From: Bacteroidota bacterium
GTDB taxonomy: Bacteria; Bacteroidota; Bacteroidia; M30B66
Assembly (NCBI GenBank): GCA_947460255.1
Contig: CANHIS010000010.1
Span: forward strand, 1 to 64,000
Reading direction: 5' to 3'
DNA: 64,000 nt
In this document: one piece after another, positions 40,177-48,271 of the stretch
How the letters are laid out: each line of letters opens with the position of its first letter
How positions within the stretch are numbered: the stretch's first letter is position 1
The notes under the pieces: generated by a model
Databases searched by the model: none
The model's input: the letters and a program-made list of their open reading frames with translations, nothing else
Told to the model about the DNA's origin: nothing
Translations under genes and position numbers: made by a program

Positions 40177-40974
40177 TTATCTTAATGTGAACTTAACAGG
40201 CAAAGTAAACTGAACACGCACTGGCTTTCCATTCTGACGGCCGGAACTCCAGTTAGGCATCATTTTAACTACACGAACAGCTTCTTCGGTTAATCCTCCA
40301 CCTAAACCACGAAGTGATTTAACATCGGTAATTTTACCATCACCTTCAACTACGAATGTAATGTAAACTGTTCCCGAAATGCCATTCTCCTTGGCCATTG
40401 ATGGATACTTGATGTTTTTCGAAAGAAACTCACGAAGCTTATCCTCACCACCTTCAAATTCAGGCATCTTTTCAACAACCGTGAAGATTTCTTGAGCACC
40501 CAAACCAGCGTCATCATCTCCTCCTCCATCTGTAGGTAAGTCGATGATTTCATTTGAACCTTCTTGTGTCTTGGTTGACACTGTAGTCTCATTTGCAACT
40601 TCTTGCGGTGGTGGAATGTCCTCTTCCTTCACTTCTTCAACAATCACAGGAGGAGTAAACTTGATCGTTTCCTGCACTGGTGGTGGTGGATCTGGTGGTG
40701 GTGGAGGTGGTGGTGGTTCGTCTTTGTCTAATGGTGGCGGATCTGTAAGTTTTAAATCCACCTCTTGAACTTTAACAGCTTCTGCTGCAAGATCGCTTAG
40801 TTTGTCGATGATTGTAGGAATACTCACTGACAATAGAAACACAGATATTGCAATTACGAATGCAATATTCATATTCTTATTGTAACGCTTACGAAGCTCA
40901 TAAGCGCCGTATTCCTTGTTTCGTTTTTCGAAAACAATCTCATCGAAGTCTTTAATCTGAAGTAATTCAGCCAT
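40177..40974 (-). CDS. tonB: Energy transducer TonB
   Basis: A 265-residue TonB protein with a cytoplasmic start (FDEIVFEKRNKEYGAYELRK), one membrane helix (about 33-53), and a Pro-rich linker including eight consecutive prolines after DKDE (about 83-98). The C-terminal domain at about 165-265 has FPGGEDKLREFLS-like spacing, YPSMAKENGISGTVYITFVV and the ending VQFTLPVKF. TonB transmits proton-motive energy from ExbB/ExbD to outer-membrane receptors. It follows the two exbD genes. Confidence 0.94.
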   Translation of the reverse strand: MAELLQIKDFDEIVFEKRNKEYGAYELRKRYNKNMNIAFVIAISVFLLSVSIPTIIDKLSDLAAEAVKVQEVDLKLTDPPPLDKDEPPPPPPPPDPPPPVQETIKFTPPVIVEEVKEEDIPPPQEVANETTVSTKTQEGSNEIIDLPTDGGGDDDAGLGAQEIFTVVEKMPEFEGGEDKLREFLSKNIKYPSMAKENGISGTVYITFVVEGDGKITDVKSLRGLGGGLTEEAVRVVKMMPNWSSGRQNGKPVRVQFTLPVKFTLR

Positions 40975-40991
40975 AATTTTCGTGAGTTGGT

Positions 40992-41657
40992 TTATTGGAA
41001 AGTATTTGCGTTTGCAATCATTTGGTCTTCTACCTCATTTGCTTCAAGAAGCGCATAAGTACCAACATTACAAATGGCCATTTCATCTAAAGCGTCAACG
41101 ATATTCTTGTACTTTGCGTCTTTATCAGGTTTCAAAAGAACTACTAGAATACTGGTTTTGCGAGTTTTATCAGAGAAGAAGTCTCCCTTTTTCTTACCTA
41201 AAGAGTCTTTAGGTAGTTTTCCGGAAGCCACATCTTTCTTCAATTTCTCGATCTCGTCATATGCACGATGGCGTTTGTTGTTCTCTGCAATAAGCACTTT
41301 TCTGAGCCCATTAGGACCATAAGATGCTTTGTTCAGCGCAGGGAGTGCTCCTTTAGAAGGATCAGCCATACCAAAATACCAATAAACAACATTGTCTTTG
41401 GTAAGTAGTACGTTCATTGTATGGTCAGCAGGCACCTTACTTTGGTCATCGAGAGGGATGTCTTTGTCCTTCTTTGGCATAGTAAGCTGCATGGCCTGCG
41501 GCTTGTTGAAAGTGGTAGTGAGGATGAAGAAGGTTAGAAGAAGGAATCCTAAATCTACCATCGGCGTCATATCGATTCGGGTAGAGGATTTTTTTGCTCT
41601 TTTCTTACCATGCTTCTTTTTCCCACCGCCACCATCGTCGGTGTTCATTTCAGCCAT
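40992..41657 (-). CDS. exbD: Biopolymer transporter ExbD/TolR (second copy)
   Basis: A 221-residue protein with a Lys/Gly-rich cytoplasmic tail (GGGKKKHGKKRAKK) and a single membrane helix starting at IDMTPMVDLGFLLLTFFIL. This helix carries the conserved aspartate used for proton translocation. The periplasmic part is longer than in E. coli ExbD (141 residues) because of an insert near 60-150. It lies 18 bases from tonB. Confidence 0.92.
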   Translation of the reverse strand: MAEMNTDDGGGGKKKHGKKRAKKSSTRIDMTPMVDLGFLLLTFFILTTTFNKPQAMQLTMPKKDKDIPLDDQSKVPADHTMNVLLTKDNVVYWYFGMADPSKGALPALNKASYGPNGLRKVLIAENNKRHRAYDEIEKLKKDVASGKLPKDSLGKKKGDFFSDKTRKTSILVVLLKPDKDAKYKNIVDALDEMAICNVGTYALLEANEVEDQMIANANTFQ

Positions 41658-41716
41658 TTCTCTATTTTTTTAACGGTTATGTTAAAACGAAATTTAAAGT
41701 TCAAAAGTGTCCGAAA

Positions 41717-42334
41717 TTAATTCGACGGACCAGTTTCCATATTGGTGATTAAATTGAATTTGTTCACCTTCCCGATGTTGTCATCTTGCAGGTAATTCAT
41801 CACTTTTCTCACCACTGGATAGCTTGTAACTTGATCCCCTTTAATAGCAACACGGAATTTAGGAGCGGTTTTACGAGAAAAGTAAATCCAATCGCAAATT
41901 TCACAGTTCAAGGAATCAATAGGAATACCCTTAGATTGTTCTGCCAGTTTTTTTCTATCTGTAGAACCTGCATCGAGGTATGCGGGAAGTTGTTTCACCG
42001 GAACACCAAAAGAAGCCATGTTTGAGAATTCTTTTTTCTGTTCCGCGTTGAAGACTACTTTATACTTTTCTCCAATTTTCTCCAGCACCTTCACGCGTTC
42101 TTCCTTTCCAGTAAGGTTAAAAAACACACGGTCTTGTTTATCAACAAGAATCATGAGTAGATCTTTTTCTGGAATTTTCAGGTCCGAAACGGAGGAAGGG
42201 ATATCAATCACAGCTGCTTCTTCGGCACGAAACTGTGAGATGAGCATGAAGAACGTAACCAGTAGAAAAGCCAGATCCACCATCGGCGTCATGTCGATGG
42301 AAGGACTGTTTTTGGGCATTTTTATCTTTGGCAT
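41717..42334 (-). CDS. exbD: Biopolymer transporter ExbD/TolR (first copy)
   Basis: A 205-residue ExbD paralogue with SPSIDMTPMVDLAFLLVTFFML at the N-terminus, including the conserved membrane Asp. A periplasmic insert carries two cysteines (LNCEICDW, near 140-147) that could form a disulfide or a small metal site. It is 21 bases from exbB. Two ExbD paralogues may form a heterodimer in the ExbB ring. Confidence 0.92.
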   Translation of the reverse strand: MPKIKMPKNSPSIDMTPMVDLAFLLVTFFMLISQFRAEEAAVIDIPSSVSDLKIPEKDLLMILVDKQDRVFFNLTGKEERVKVLEKIGEKYKVVFNAEQKKEFSNMASFGVPVKQLPAYLDAGSTDRKKLAEQSKGIPIDSLNCEICDWIYFSRKTAPKFRVAIKGDQVTSYPVVRKVMNYLQDDNIGKVNKFNLITNMETGPSN

Positions 42335-42355
42335 CGCCTTCTGTTGCTGGTAAGA

Positions 42356-43171
42356 TTACTTAGATTGAGATGCAAATGACTGAACAAGAGAAAATCCTGA
42401 CTCGTCGATTTTATATGTCAAACTATCAATCTGTGTTGTGAAATAGTTGTACATGATAATTGCGATTGTAGAACCAGTAATTCCAAGAGCAGTGTTGATC
42501 AAGGCTTCAGAAATACCATTCGCTAGAGCAACTGCATCTGGAGCACCTGCCTGAGCAAGAGCCGAGAATGCTTTAATCATTCCAAGTACAGTACCGATCA
42601 AACCAACAAGTGTCGCAATAGAGGCACATGTAGAAATGATTACAAGATTCTTTGATAACATAGGAAGTTCAAGTGCTGTAGCTTCTTCAAGTTCCTTCTG
42701 CATTGCAACAACCTTTTGGTCTTTGTCCATAGACGTATCGTTTTGTAGAAGTCTGAAACGCTGAAGACCTGCTTTCATAACATTTGCAAGAGATCCTTTT
42801 TGCTTATCGCATTCTGCAACAGCTGTTTCAATTTGGTTATTGTTAACCATGTTCTGCAAATTGCGGATGAAAACATTTAGTTTACCGCGACCTTTTGCTT
42901 TGCTTATAGTAAGAAATCTTTCGATAGAGAAAGCAATGATGATTACCACAATCGACATCAAAATAGGTACAATGAAACCTCCTTTGTAAACGATACCTAG
43001 AATATCTCCAGGATGAGGGTGTCCTAATTCTGGATCGCCACCTTCAAAGTGCGAAGGATCGCCCATTACAAACATGAATACTAAAACTGATACGATAATT
43101 GAAGATAGAATTACCGATGCCGCAAAAAAGGCTCCGATACCACTTTCAACTGATTTCTGATTGCTGCTCAT
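42356..43171 (-). CDS. exbB: MotA/TolQ/ExbB proton channel protein
   Basis: A 271-residue membrane protein with an N-terminal helix (about 14-38), a second (about 65-85), a cytoplasmic segment, and two C-terminal helices. Those contain CASIATLVGLIGTVLGMIKAF and ALINTALGITGSTIAIIMY, the TolQ/ExbB signature. It forms the proton channel that energises TonB. It is the first gene of the operon; a -7 element (43235-43242) lies upstream. Confidence 0.94.
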   Translation of the reverse strand: MSSNQKSVESGIGAFFAASVILSSIIVSVLVFMFVMGDPSHFEGGDPELGHPHPGDILGIVYKGGFIVPILMSIVVIIIAFSIERFLTISKAKGRGKLNVFIRNLQNMVNNNQIETAVAECDKQKGSLANVMKAGLQRFRLLQNDTSMDKDQKVVAMQKELEEATALELPMLSKNLVIISTCASIATLVGLIGTVLGMIKAFSALAQAGAPDAVALANGISEALINTALGITGSTIAIIMYNYFTTQIDSLTYKIDESGFSLVQSFASQSK

Positions 43172-43370: not shown

Positions 43371-43401
43371 TTGTTCAATTGAATTTCTTGTTATACTTTT
43401 G
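43371..43401 (+). promoter_or_regulatory. Promoter for rimP-nusA-infB
   Basis: TTG at 43371-43373 and TACTTTTG at 43394-43401 are 20 bp apart, matching the Bacteroidota -33/-7 consensus. Initiation would be near 43406-43408. Confidence 0.65.
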
Positions 43402-43420
43402 CAGCGGCTTAAAAAAGGAG

Positions 43421-43443
43421 AAGGGGACAGTGTCCCTTTTTTT
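43421..43443 (+). terminator. Terminator-like hairpin in the rimP leader (possible attenuator)
   Basis: AAGGGGAC (43421-43428) pairs with GTCCCTTT (43432-43439) around loop AGT, with one G-T pair. The T-run covers 43437-43443. It lies between the promoter and the rimP ATG at 43460, so readthrough must occur for the operon to be expressed. Confidence 0.6.
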
Positions 43444-43459
43444 ATTCTTAATCAGTCGA

Positions 43460-43930
43460 ATGATAAAAAAGGATCAACTCATAAAGCTTGCTGAACAATT
43501 TCTAGCAGATTCAGAGAACTACTTAATTGATATTAAAGTAAGTTCTACGAATAAGATCATGGTACTCATTGAAAACGACAACCATGTTTCAATCAGCGAT
43601 TGTATAGCGCTTAGCAGACATATCGAGCACTCGCTTGATCGTGAACAAGAGGATTTTGAATTGGAGGTTTCCTCTCCAGGAATAGATCAACCTTTCAAAT
43701 CAATTCGGCAGTTCAAAAAATATATGGGCCAAGAAGTTGATATTAAACTTCGAGACGGGTTAAAGCATCAAGGAAAATTGACCGCTGCAAACGAATCCTC
43801 GATTTCGATTATTGCTTCAAAAGAAAAGAGAAACAAAAACAATAAAAATCAACCATCGGATGTAAATCCTGATATGACTTTTCAAATGAAAGACATTTTG
43901 GAAACACGACTGGTGATTAAACTTTCATAA
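43460..43930 (+). CDS. rimP: Ribosome maturation factor RimP
   Basis: A 156-residue protein with the RimP pattern: LIDIKVSSTNKIMVLIENDN, ISDCIALSRHIEHSLDR and LEVSSPGIDQPF. RimP assists maturation of the 30S subunit. The ATG at 43460 is chosen because an upstream in-frame reading to 43379 would pass through the promoter and hairpin. It starts the conserved rimP-nusA-infB operon, with 17 bases to nusA. Confidence 0.94.
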   Translation: MIKKDQLIKLAEQFLADSENYLIDIKVSSTNKIMVLIENDNHVSISDCIALSRHIEHSLDREQEDFELEVSSPGIDQPFKSIRQFKKYMGQEVDIKLRDGLKHQGKLTAANESSISIIASKEKRNKNNKNQPSDVNPDMTFQMKDILETRLVIKLS

Positions 43931-43947: not shown

Positions 43948-45183
43948 ATGGAACACGCCGCACTGATCGAATCATTTGCAGAATTCAAGGAATTCAAAAA
44001 CATTGATAGAGCTACCATGATGGGAATTCTTGAAGATGTTTTTCGCAACATGATTATCAAGAAGTATGGTTCGGATGAAAATTTCGATATCATTATCAAC
44101 ATCGACAAAGGGGATCTTGAAGTATGGAGAAACCGAGAAATTGTTGAGGATAATGCTATTGAAGATCCCAACAAACAAATTGGATACACAGATGCAATTA
44201 AGATCGAACCTGACTTCGAAGTTGGTGAAGCAGTTTCTGAAGAGGTGCACTTAAACGACTTCGGAAGAAGAGCTGTTCTTGCATTCCGTCAGAATCTAGT
44301 TGCGAGAATTTCTGAACTTGAAAAGGACTCTGTTTATCAGAAATACAAAAACCGTATTGGAGAAATTGTATCTGGAGAAATTTATCAAGTTTGGAAAAAA
44401 GAAGTTCTAATCTTAGATGAAGAAGGCAACGAACTTGTAATCCCAAAAACAGAACAGATACCGAGCGATTTCTATAAAAAAGGTGAAAATGCCCGTGCTG
44501 TTGTTTTGCGTGTTGAAATGAAAAACAACAATCCGCAAATAATCCTTTCTAGAACCTCACCGGCATTCTTGGAGAAATTATTCGAGCAAGAAGTTCCAGA
44601 AGTTTTTGATGGTTTGATTACAATCAAAAAAATTGTTCGCGAGCCTGGTGTAAGAGCTAAGGTTGCAGTTGAATCATACGATGAACGTATCGACCCTGTT
44701 GGTGCATGCGTTGGAATGAAAGGTTCGAGAATTCATGGAATCGTTCGAGAATTAAAGAACGAAAACATCGACGTGATTAACTACACCAATAACAACTCCT
44801 TATATATAACACGTGCTTTAAGTCCTGCCAAGATCACTTCGATTAAGTTAGACGAAGCAACTAAGCGTGCTGAAGTTTACCTGAAACCCGATCAGGTATC
44901 GCTTGCAATTGGTAAAGGTGGCTTGAACATCAAACTAGCAAGTCGTTTGGCGGGTTATGAAATTGATGTTTACCGCGATTCTGAAATTGACAGTGAAGAT
45001 GTTGATTTGGATGAATTTGCAGATGAAATCGACAGCTGGATTCTCGATGAATTGAAGAATGTAGGCTGCGATACCGCGAAAAGTGTTCTCGAATTGCCTG
45101 TAGATGATCTCGTGAAACGCACTGATCTAGAAGAAGAAACAATCAAAGAAGTGATGAGAATCCTCAGGTCAGAATTTGAATAA
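43948..45183 (+). CDS. nusA: Transcription termination/antitermination factor NusA
   Basis: A 411-residue NusA with an N-terminal RNA-polymerase-binding domain (about 1-125), an S1 domain (about 130-200, starting YQKYKNRIGEIVSGEIYQVW), and KH1 and KH2 domains (KVAVESYDERIDPVGACVGMKGSRI and LAIGKGGLNIKLASRLAGYEID). It ends with a helix-hairpin-helix-like segment rather than the long acidic repeats of E. coli NusA. NusA controls pausing and intrinsic termination, so it could act on the hairpin in its own leader. Confidence 0.97.
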   Translation: MEHAALIESFAEFKEFKNIDRATMMGILEDVFRNMIIKKYGSDENFDIIINIDKGDLEVWRNREIVEDNAIEDPNKQIGYTDAIKIEPDFEVGEAVSEEVHLNDFGRRAVLAFRQNLVARISELEKDSVYQKYKNRIGEIVSGEIYQVWKKEVLILDEEGNELVIPKTEQIPSDFYKKGENARAVVLRVEMKNNNPQIILSRTSPAFLEKLFEQEVPEVFDGLITIKKIVREPGVRAKVAVESYDERIDPVGACVGMKGSRIHGIVRELKNENIDVINYTNNNSLYITRALSPAKITSIKLDEATKRAEVYLKPDQVSLAIGKGGLNIKLASRLAGYEIDVYRDSEIDSEDVDLDEFADEIDSWILDELKNVGCDTAKSVLELPVDDLVKRTDLEEETIKEVMRILRSEFE

Positions 45184-45220: not shown

Positions 45221-48200
45221 ATGTCAGAAGCATCAACAGTAAAAAGATTAAGTAAAGTTGCCACCGAACTCAATGTTGGGGTGCAAACAGTTATTGATTT
45301 TCTAGTCGGCAAAGGTTTCGATGATATCAGCCGCAACTCGAAAATCACCGACGACATGTATGGGCTTTTGATAAAAGCCTACGGTGCAGAAAAAGATGCA
45401 AAGGAAGAATCCAAGAAAATCATCCAAACTCGTCTCAAAAGAGAAACGGTTGCATTGGACGATTCTCAACCGACAATCCAACGCCACGATGATTCAGACA
45501 ACGAACCAGAAGAGGTGCTTGTTAAAAATCTCAACAACCCTGTTGCAGAACGATTTAAACCTGAACCTGTTGAACTTAAAAAGGAAGTTGAACCTGAGCC
45601 AATTATCGAAACGGCACCAGTTCCAGCACCAGTGCAGGAAATTGTTTCTGAGATTGTAGTAGAACCAGAACCGGTTAAGGTCGAGATTGAAAAAGCTCCA
45701 GAGGTAATTACTCAAACTTCAGAAGAGCCATTTCGAGCAGAAACTCAAGCTCCAACTGGTCCGAAAGTTCTTGGAACAATCGACTTAAGTGCCTTAAGCA
45801 AAGGGAAAAAGAAAGAAGAGCCCAAAACTAAAGCTCCAGAGAATCTTAAAAAAACAGAGCCCAAAGTTGAAGTTTCAAAACAAACAGAATCCGTTAAAGA
45901 AGTAACTCCGGAAGTTGTTGCCGACGTTCCAAAAAAAGTTGAGGTCCCCTTAGAAATAGTTAAAACAATAGAGGCGGCACCTTCAACTGATTTGCCAGTT
46001 ATTGTTGAACCAACAGCAACTGAAGTAGCTCCAGAAGAGAAACCATCCGACGAGCCATTCAGAATTGAGCGTAAAAAACTAGAAGGTCCTACAATTCTTC
46101 GTAAGATTGAATTAGCTCCACCTACGCCAAAGAAACCAGTTGCTTCATCTTCTAATCCTGGTGTTGGTGGAAATCAGGCAGGAAAGAAAAAGCGCAAACG
46201 CATTGAAAACGGTCCAACACCTGGAACAAATCCTAATGCAGGCCAACCTCAGCAACAATCCCAACAACAACAACAAAGACCTGGTGGAGGATCAGGTGGT
46301 GGGCAATACCAAGGTAACCGACCTCGTCCAGGTGGGCAAGGTGGACGCCCAGCGCCAGCGCCAAAACCTCAATTAACTGAAGAGGAAGTTCAAAAACAGA
46401 TTAAAGAAACGTTGGCTCGACTTAGTCAGGGCAAACAAAAATCTAAATCTGCAAAGTATAGAAAACAGAAACGAGAAGATTTCCGTGCTGCTCAAGAAGA
46501 AGCAGAAATGGATAACATGGAGAAAATCATTAAAGTTACTGAGTTCGTAACTGCTAATGAGTTGGCCAAAATGATGAATGTTCAGGTGAATGAAATTATT
46601 TCAACCTGTATGTCTTTAGGTCTCTTCGTATCCATCAATCAAAGACTTGACGCAGAAACGTTAACAATCGTAGCCGATGAATTCGGTTATAAAGTTGAAT
46701 TCGTAAGTGTAGAAGTTCAGGAAGCAATTCGTGAAGAAGAAGACAATGAGGAGGAGATGATTTCTCGTCCGCCAATTGTTACTGTTATGGGTCACGTTGA
46801 CCATGGTAAAACTTCATTGTTGGATTATATCAGAAAGGCCAACGTAATCGCCGGTGAGGCAGGAGGAATTACCCAGCACATTGGCGCCTACAACGTAATG
46901 ATGGAGAATGGGAAAAAAATCACTTTCCTAGATACTCCAGGTCACGAGGCTTTCACAGCCATGCGTGCTCGTGGAGCGCAAGTAACAGACGTTGCGATTA
47001 TAGTTGTAGCTGCAGATGATAGTGTTATGCCTCAAACAATTGAGGCAATTAACCACGCCCAAGCTGCTCAAGTACCATTGGTTTTTGCCATCAATAAGAT
47101 TGATAAACCTGGTGCTAATCCTGAAAAAATAAAAGAGCAACTTGCTCAAATGAATATTCTTGTTGAGGATTGGGGCGGTAAGTACCAAGTTCAAGAAATT
47201 TCAGCCAAGCAAGGTAAAAATGTTGAATTGCTTCTTGAAAAAGTATTACTCGAGGCAGAAATTCTTGATTTGAAAGCAAACCCTAGCAAACGTGCTATGG
47301 GAACAATTATCGAATCGGAACTCGATAAAGGAAGAGGGTACGTAAGTACATTATTGGTTACATCAGGAACTTTAAGAATTGGTGATGTTGTTTTAGCTGG
47401 TCCTCACAGCGGTCGTGTTAAGGCATTATTTAACGAACGTGGAGCGCCAATTAAGGAGGCAGGCCCTGCACAAGCTGCACAAATGCTTGGTCTAAGTGGC
47501 GCACCTTCTTCAGGCGACAAGTTTAATGTGATGGCTGACGAACGTGAAGCTCGGGAAATCGCAAACAAACGTCAGCAACTTCAGCGTGAGCAAGGAATTC
47601 GAATGCACAAGCACATCACGCTTGATGAAATCGGAAGACGTATCGCTATTGGTGACTTTAAGGAGTTAAACATCATCGTAAAAGGTGACGTGGACGGGTC
47701 AGTTGAAGCACTATCTGACTCATTGCTTAAATTATCAACTGAGAAAATTCAGGTAAATATCATCCATAAATCTGTGGGTCAAGTTACCGAAAGCGACGTT
47801 TTGTTAGCATCCGCATCAAATGCAATCATCGTTGGTTTCCAAGTGCGTCCTTCTTCAAGCGCCAGAAAACTGGCTGAAACTGAAGAGATTGATATGAGAT
47901 TCTATTCAATTATCTACAATGCAATTGAAGAAATCAAATCAGCTATGGAAGGTCTTCTTGCTCCAGAGTTTGAAGAAAAAATCGTGTGCAATGTTGAAGT
48001 TCGCGATGTATTCAAGATCACTCGCGTTGGAACGGTAGCCGGATGTTATGTATTGGATGGAAAAATCAATAGAAATACCAAAATCCGATTGATCAGAGAT
48101 GGCATTGTTGTATATTCTGGAGACCTAGGATCCTTGAAACGATTTAAAGACGATGTAAAGGAAGTGGCAACTGGATACGAGTGTGGTTTGAATATTCACA

Positions 48201-48271
48201 ATTTCAACGACATCAAAGTTGGCGACATCATTGAAGGATATGAAAATGTTGAAATAAAGAGAAAATTGTAA
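45221..48271 (+). CDS. infB: Translation initiation factor IF-2
   Basis: IF-2 places initiator tRNA on the 30S subunit. The 1016-residue protein has an N-terminal IF2_N-type helix, then about 350 residues of low complexity rich in Pro, Glu, Lys and Gln (including [15 protein letters not shown] near 345). A second IF2_N follows near 430. The GTPase domain has GHVDHGKT at 524-531 and DTPGHEAF near 573, with NKID further on, and then domains II-IV. A short GGGT-GAAA-ACCC hairpin lies at 45189-45200 before the start. The C-terminus ends 3 bases from the convergent SPOR gene. Confidence 0.97.

Follow-up and report, generated by a model that had tools for sequence, protein, structure and literature searches.

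The rimP-nusA-infB operon of a Bacteroidota bacterium, analysed here within a 64-kb stretch of DNA (hereafter the window), is preceded by a short G-rich hairpin with a T-run, which probably serves as an early attenuator of the intrinsic-terminator type, through which NusA would restrain expression of its own operon. Both the termination and the NusA control are deduced from sequence comparison and from analogy with the same operon elsewhere. The NusA feedback attenuator proposed elsewhere would thereby be extended to almost all of Bacteroidia and given a defined consensus. Transcription attenuation is poorly charted in this phylum, and the Rfam rimP model misses the leader there. Moreover, genomes without detectable RimP offer a natural test of the long-standing, rarely tested idea that the leader controls NusA, not RimP, and they support that idea.

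A promoter and a terminator-like hairpin precede rimP

The sequence-only reading of the window had described a promoter followed by an 8-bp hairpin with a T7 run (43421–43443) and then by rimP-nusA-infB, and this order was confirmed by direct inspection of the sequence and by Pfam assignments (Table 1). The promoter carries TACTTTTG, which is a TAnnTTTG box, the standard form of Bacteroidota promoters, and the established spacing for promoters of this type predicts a start at approximately 43407–43409. Because the T-run ends at 43443, the terminated RNA would be approximately 35–37 nt long, in agreement with the leader RNA of about 35 nt expected earlier. In the 8-bp stem, 43421–43428 are paired with 43432–43439 across an AGT loop (AAGGGGAC-AGT-GTCCCTT), with a single G-U among the eight pairs (43423–43437), and the stem is extendable to 12 bp (43417–43443) by further G-U pairs. 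The T7 run occupies 43437–43443 and overlaps the 3′ end of the stem, which reaches 43439. Between the hairpin and the rimP ATG at 43460, the window sequence leaves no room for a second promoter.

Table 1. Coordinates of the leader elements and operon genes in the window
Feature	Position	Strand	Basis
Promoter of rimP-nusA-infB: TTG (43371–43373), 20-nt spacer, TACTTTTG (43394–43401)	43371–43401	+	Sequence read directly
Predicted short leader RNA, approximately 35–37 nt	43407–43443	+	Start inferred from promoter spacing; end = T-run end
Terminator-like hairpin: core GGGGAC-AGT-GTCCC, then T7	43417–43443	+	Sequence, fold, conservation before rimP
rimP, first gene of the operon	43460–43930	+	Pfam RimP_N (5e-12) and RimP C-terminal domain
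nusA, proposed autoregulator (NTD, S1 and KH domains)	43948–45183	+	Pfam NusA_N (3e-30), KH_5 (3e-27), S1
infB (IF-2), downstream in the operon	45221–48271	+	Pfam IF-2 (2e-40), GTP_EFTU, IF2_N

Taken alone, the window hairpin is moderately unusual in its fold (z = −2.9), and four terminator-like sites were counted in 3 kb versus 2.1 expected. The window has 61 TAnnTTTG sites, and that of the rimP leader is the only one followed by a terminator within 75 nt. A divergent cluster on the minus strand (40177–43171) resembles a proton-channel/TonB-type energy system, comprising a MotA/TolQ/ExbB-family gene (Pfam), then two ORFs reminiscent of ExbD and one of TonB.

The hairpin is conserved in rimP leaders of relatives

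The sequence-only reading had also proposed looking for the hairpin in relatives. nusA loci were gathered from genomes ranging from the same genus to the same class, together with others from a public genome collection, rimP was located by profile, and hairpins were scored within 120 nt before rimP, with dinucleotide shuffles of the same sequences providing the expectation. A terminator-like hairpin was found in 120 of 130 Bacteroidota rimP leaders, versus 0.9 expected from shuffles. The set includes some near-duplicates (124 distinct leaders among the 130), and a G-rich hairpin was present in 119 of the distinct leaders. Within the 48 nt upstream of the hairpin, a TAnnTTTG box was sought and found at a distance of 10–35 nt in 96 of these 119 leaders (5.3 expected from shuffles), and thus operon transcripts must cross the hairpin. 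TAnnTTTG sites elsewhere in these loci served as a control, and 10 of 405 had a terminator within 80 nt. Behind the stem, at least 113 of the 119 leaders carry a T-run, L011, L013 and L055 among them, and the median distance from the C-run to the ATG is 19 nt (range 10–138 nt). These comparative data strongly support the terminator-type attenuator that had been predicted from sequence between the promoter and rimP.

In three leaders (L021, L025 and L137) the stem is perfectly kept and the T-run is interrupted (e.g. GTCCCCTCTTGCATT), and the T-run rule missed them; such an interruption is as expected for helper-factor-dependent terminators. No hairpin was found at rimP in the families with divergent NusA (G089, G122 and G152; loci L246, L247 and L248), and in G068/G135 it is weak at most. 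The NusA proteins of G089, G122 and G152 have approximately 40% identity, and a TAnnTTTG-like promoter is kept before rimP in these genomes. Fast evolution is the one explanation offered here for these missing or weak hairpins.

The stem sequence is kept beyond the needs of pairing

The Bacteroidia stem has the consensus GAGGGGAC-loop-GTCCCCTC, with T after it. Pair tallies, made on the stems of the 116 leaders scored by G-run, found exactly four G-C pairs (a GGGG run) in 97 leaders, an A-T pair inside the run in 82, and a C-G inner pair adjoining the run in 97, with C-G and T-A as minority alternatives on both sides. Judged by these tallies, conservation of the stem sequence exceeds what pairing would require, and this suggests recognition by some factor. 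When 149 class genomes were searched for the pattern GGGGAC..GTCCC..TTTT, 73 distinct sites were obtained, 50 of which lie at rimP; 14 motif sites were assigned to rimP via rimP leaders already collected.

Other classes of the phylum carry a different stem at the same position, often GTGGG..CCCAC with a T-run. Two tandem terminator-like hairpins before rimP were observed in three leaders from these classes (L216, L222 and L229), and a tandem hairpin form before rimP is described for some Gammaproteobacteria.

nusA retains its hairpin leader where RimP is undetectable

By profile search, 146 of the 149 class genomes gave a NusA match and 136 a RimP match, and in ten genomes NusA was present with RimP undetectable, an absence scored on incomplete assemblies and repeated in four genomes of one genus. 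Several Bacteroidia genomes apparently lack RimP, among them each of the four sampled of that genus. Upstream of nusA itself, a G-rich hairpin with a T-run was found in nine of the ten RimP-less genomes, which are not independent and represent approximately four lineages. The four genomes of one genus (G023, G066, G102 and G133; loci L243, L236, L237 and L238) carry the nusA leader GGGGGATTGACAAAGTCCCCCTTTT and variants of it, the hairpins of G032 and G146 are GAGGGGAACAACTCCCCTCTTTTTT and GGGGTGAGAACCCCTTTTTTT, respectively, and three genomes of another genus (G053, G091 and G123; L242, L239 and L240) have weaker or more distant hairpins before nusA. An automatic test for promoter and terminator together was passed by seven of the nine leaders. 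The tenth RimP-less genome, the 0.5-Mb G033, lacks the hairpin. Since nine genomes without detectable RimP have the leader before nusA, the leader follows nusA, not rimP. In the seven genomes of the two genera, nusA is the first gene and shows an apparent N-terminal extension that precedes the aligned start (ATGGCTACTAAAAC...).

Proposed NusA autoregulation and alternative explanations

NusA control is the best-supported reading of this leader, considering that the leader stays with nusA and that attenuation of this operon occurs in other phyla. RNA polymerase would start at approximately 43408 and produce the G-rich hairpin and then the U-tract within approximately 36 nt, and a fraction of the complexes would stop near 43443, giving partial termination. 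Polymerase-bound NusA would aid hairpin formation; abundant NusA would cause more stopping and less rimP-nusA-infB mRNA, and with scarce NusA the polymerase would read through. NusA is described to promote the folding of RNA hairpins inside the exit channel of the polymerase, with its strongest effect at suboptimal terminators (PMC12288461). Between the promoter box and the hairpin of the relatives' leaders, where only 10–35 nt are available, no conserved sequence was found, and an antiterminator was rejected on this ground. Because neither room nor conserved sequence is available for an antiterminator, control by the abundance of the termination factor is the simplest model, and without such a competitor the NusA level itself would be the setting. 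A leader peptide was also rejected, as the predicted 36-nt leader of the window contains no ATG; an ATG was counted in 36 of 96 relatives' leaders, a count that includes sequence beyond the hairpin.

Counting against a NusA attenuator are the hairpin-free rimP loci of the divergent-NusA families, the lack of the hairpin in the 0.5-Mb genome, the interrupted T-run in at least three relatives, and the weaker or more distant hairpins of G053 and G123. A stronger version, in which NusA itself would recognise GAGGGGAC..GTCCCCTC in the nascent RNA of Bacteroidia, is conceivable and rather doubtful; the leader would then be a sequence-specific, nusA-tied autoregulatory element of approximately 36 nt that persists after rimP loss, and not a generic NusA-sensitive terminator.

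The leader could also be a real attenuator with another effector: RimP, IF-2 or NusG might set the readthrough, or a growth-rate signal might, for instance the nucleotide levels close to the start site. Several candidate regulators are products of the operon itself, the conserved stem points to recognition by some factor, and intrinsic terminators of B. subtilis are also acted on by NusG and Rho (PMC12288461). In both RimP-less loci checked, infB still lies behind nusA, which therefore keeps IF-2 among the possible effectors. RimP as the sensor, however, is unlikely, weakened as it is by the RimP-less genomes that keep the leader before nusA, and NusA control of rimP-nusA-infB has been established or proposed in two other phyla; on balance, we consider an effector other than NusA unlikely.

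A constitutive terminator, which would hold a strong promoter at a fixed low output with no feedback, has the same anatomy as a regulated one, and anatomy alone cannot tell them apart. This explanation is nevertheless improbable, since a weaker promoter would give the same output, the stem sequence is conserved to a degree well past what pairing requires, and in B. subtilis the homologous site is under regulation. Still less probable is a role of the hairpin in the mature mRNA, in 5′-end decay protection or translation-start tuning, with the T-run being incidental: the short median distance to the start codon and the relatives that keep the stem despite an interrupted T-run would fit such a role, but nearly all leaders have the T-run behind the stem, and the start codon lies at very different distances from it. 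Finally, a chance inverted repeat or a dispersed-repeat copy, for which the moderate single-sequence statistics might speak, has almost no probability left because conservation of the hairpin at the orthologous site extends across the class, with another sequence form in the phylum's other classes, and GGGGACAGTGTCCC has a single perfect copy in the genome.

Comparison with known attenuators of the operon

The Rfam family RF01770 (rimP), a 102-position model with a gathering threshold of 47 bits, has the same operon position as the window leader. It gave no match in the window region at E up to 5, and none of 60 relatives scored above its cut-off; the leader is therefore not a member of RF01770 as modelled. 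Membership in a known Rfam family was rejected, with neither RF01770 nor any other model giving a credible hit at the hairpin site.

The earlier remark that no described case was known in this phylum holds only in part. No paper on NusA control of the rimP leader in Bacteroidota was found among open-licence papers, whereas for Flavobacterium psychrophilum, a member of the phylum, a structured 5′ element ahead of rimP was already listed in 2021 as conserved in Flavobacteriaceae and without an Rfam match; the main text of that paper assigns it no mechanism, NusA link or consensus (PMC9723704). Outside the phylum, NusA had been suspected as the effector of the rimP-leader since 2010.

As described in the main text of Naville & Gautheret (2010), where it is called the most widespread attenuator and Bacteroidetes are not mentioned, the rimP-leader is a short terminator hairpin with a G-rich 5′ arm, a C-rich 3′ arm and a T-run, located 4 to approximately 130 nt before rimP; its stem motif GGGc(...)gCCC is conserved and rare in other terminators, with no visible antiterminator or larger conserved sensor (PMC2965389). 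The window matches this position rule, with the hairpin and T-run at 43417–43443, the ATG at 43460 and the rimP-nusA-infB operon behind them. Similarly, the Bacteroidia leaders lack a visible antiterminator, conserve the stem sequence, and have a motif mostly confined to rimP. Arm polarity and G/C-rich arms also agree, but the Bacteroidia motif is GGGGAC..GTCCCC as opposed to GGGc..gCCC. Unlike the rimP-leader, the Bacteroidia leader is driven by a TAnnTTTG promoter just approximately 10–35 nt upstream. The E. coli element CTGGGCTTTAGGCCCTTTTTTTATG, directly before rimP, resembles the Bacteroidia leader. By its sequence and these likenesses, the window leader is thus best classed as a putative attenuator of the rimP-leader kind with a Bacteroidia-specific stem.

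In Bacillus subtilis, NusA stimulates intrinsic termination within the leader of the operon that encodes it and thereby regulates its own synthesis, which is reported as established in the text of PMC12288461 (citing Mondal 2016), and the rimP (ylxS) leader is given as approximately 180 nt in the text of PMC2965389. That leader is longer and experimentally shown, whereas the window leader of approximately 36 nt is a prediction. In the Firmicute Streptococcus agalactiae, RNA-seq of gbs0413-gbs0418 (rimP-nusA-infB) found premature termination at an intrinsic terminator 31 nt downstream of the start, the short and the long RNAs having a common start, and NusA feedback was proposed (PMC4448216). 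This RNA-seq-backed arrangement has almost the geometry that is predicted for the window.
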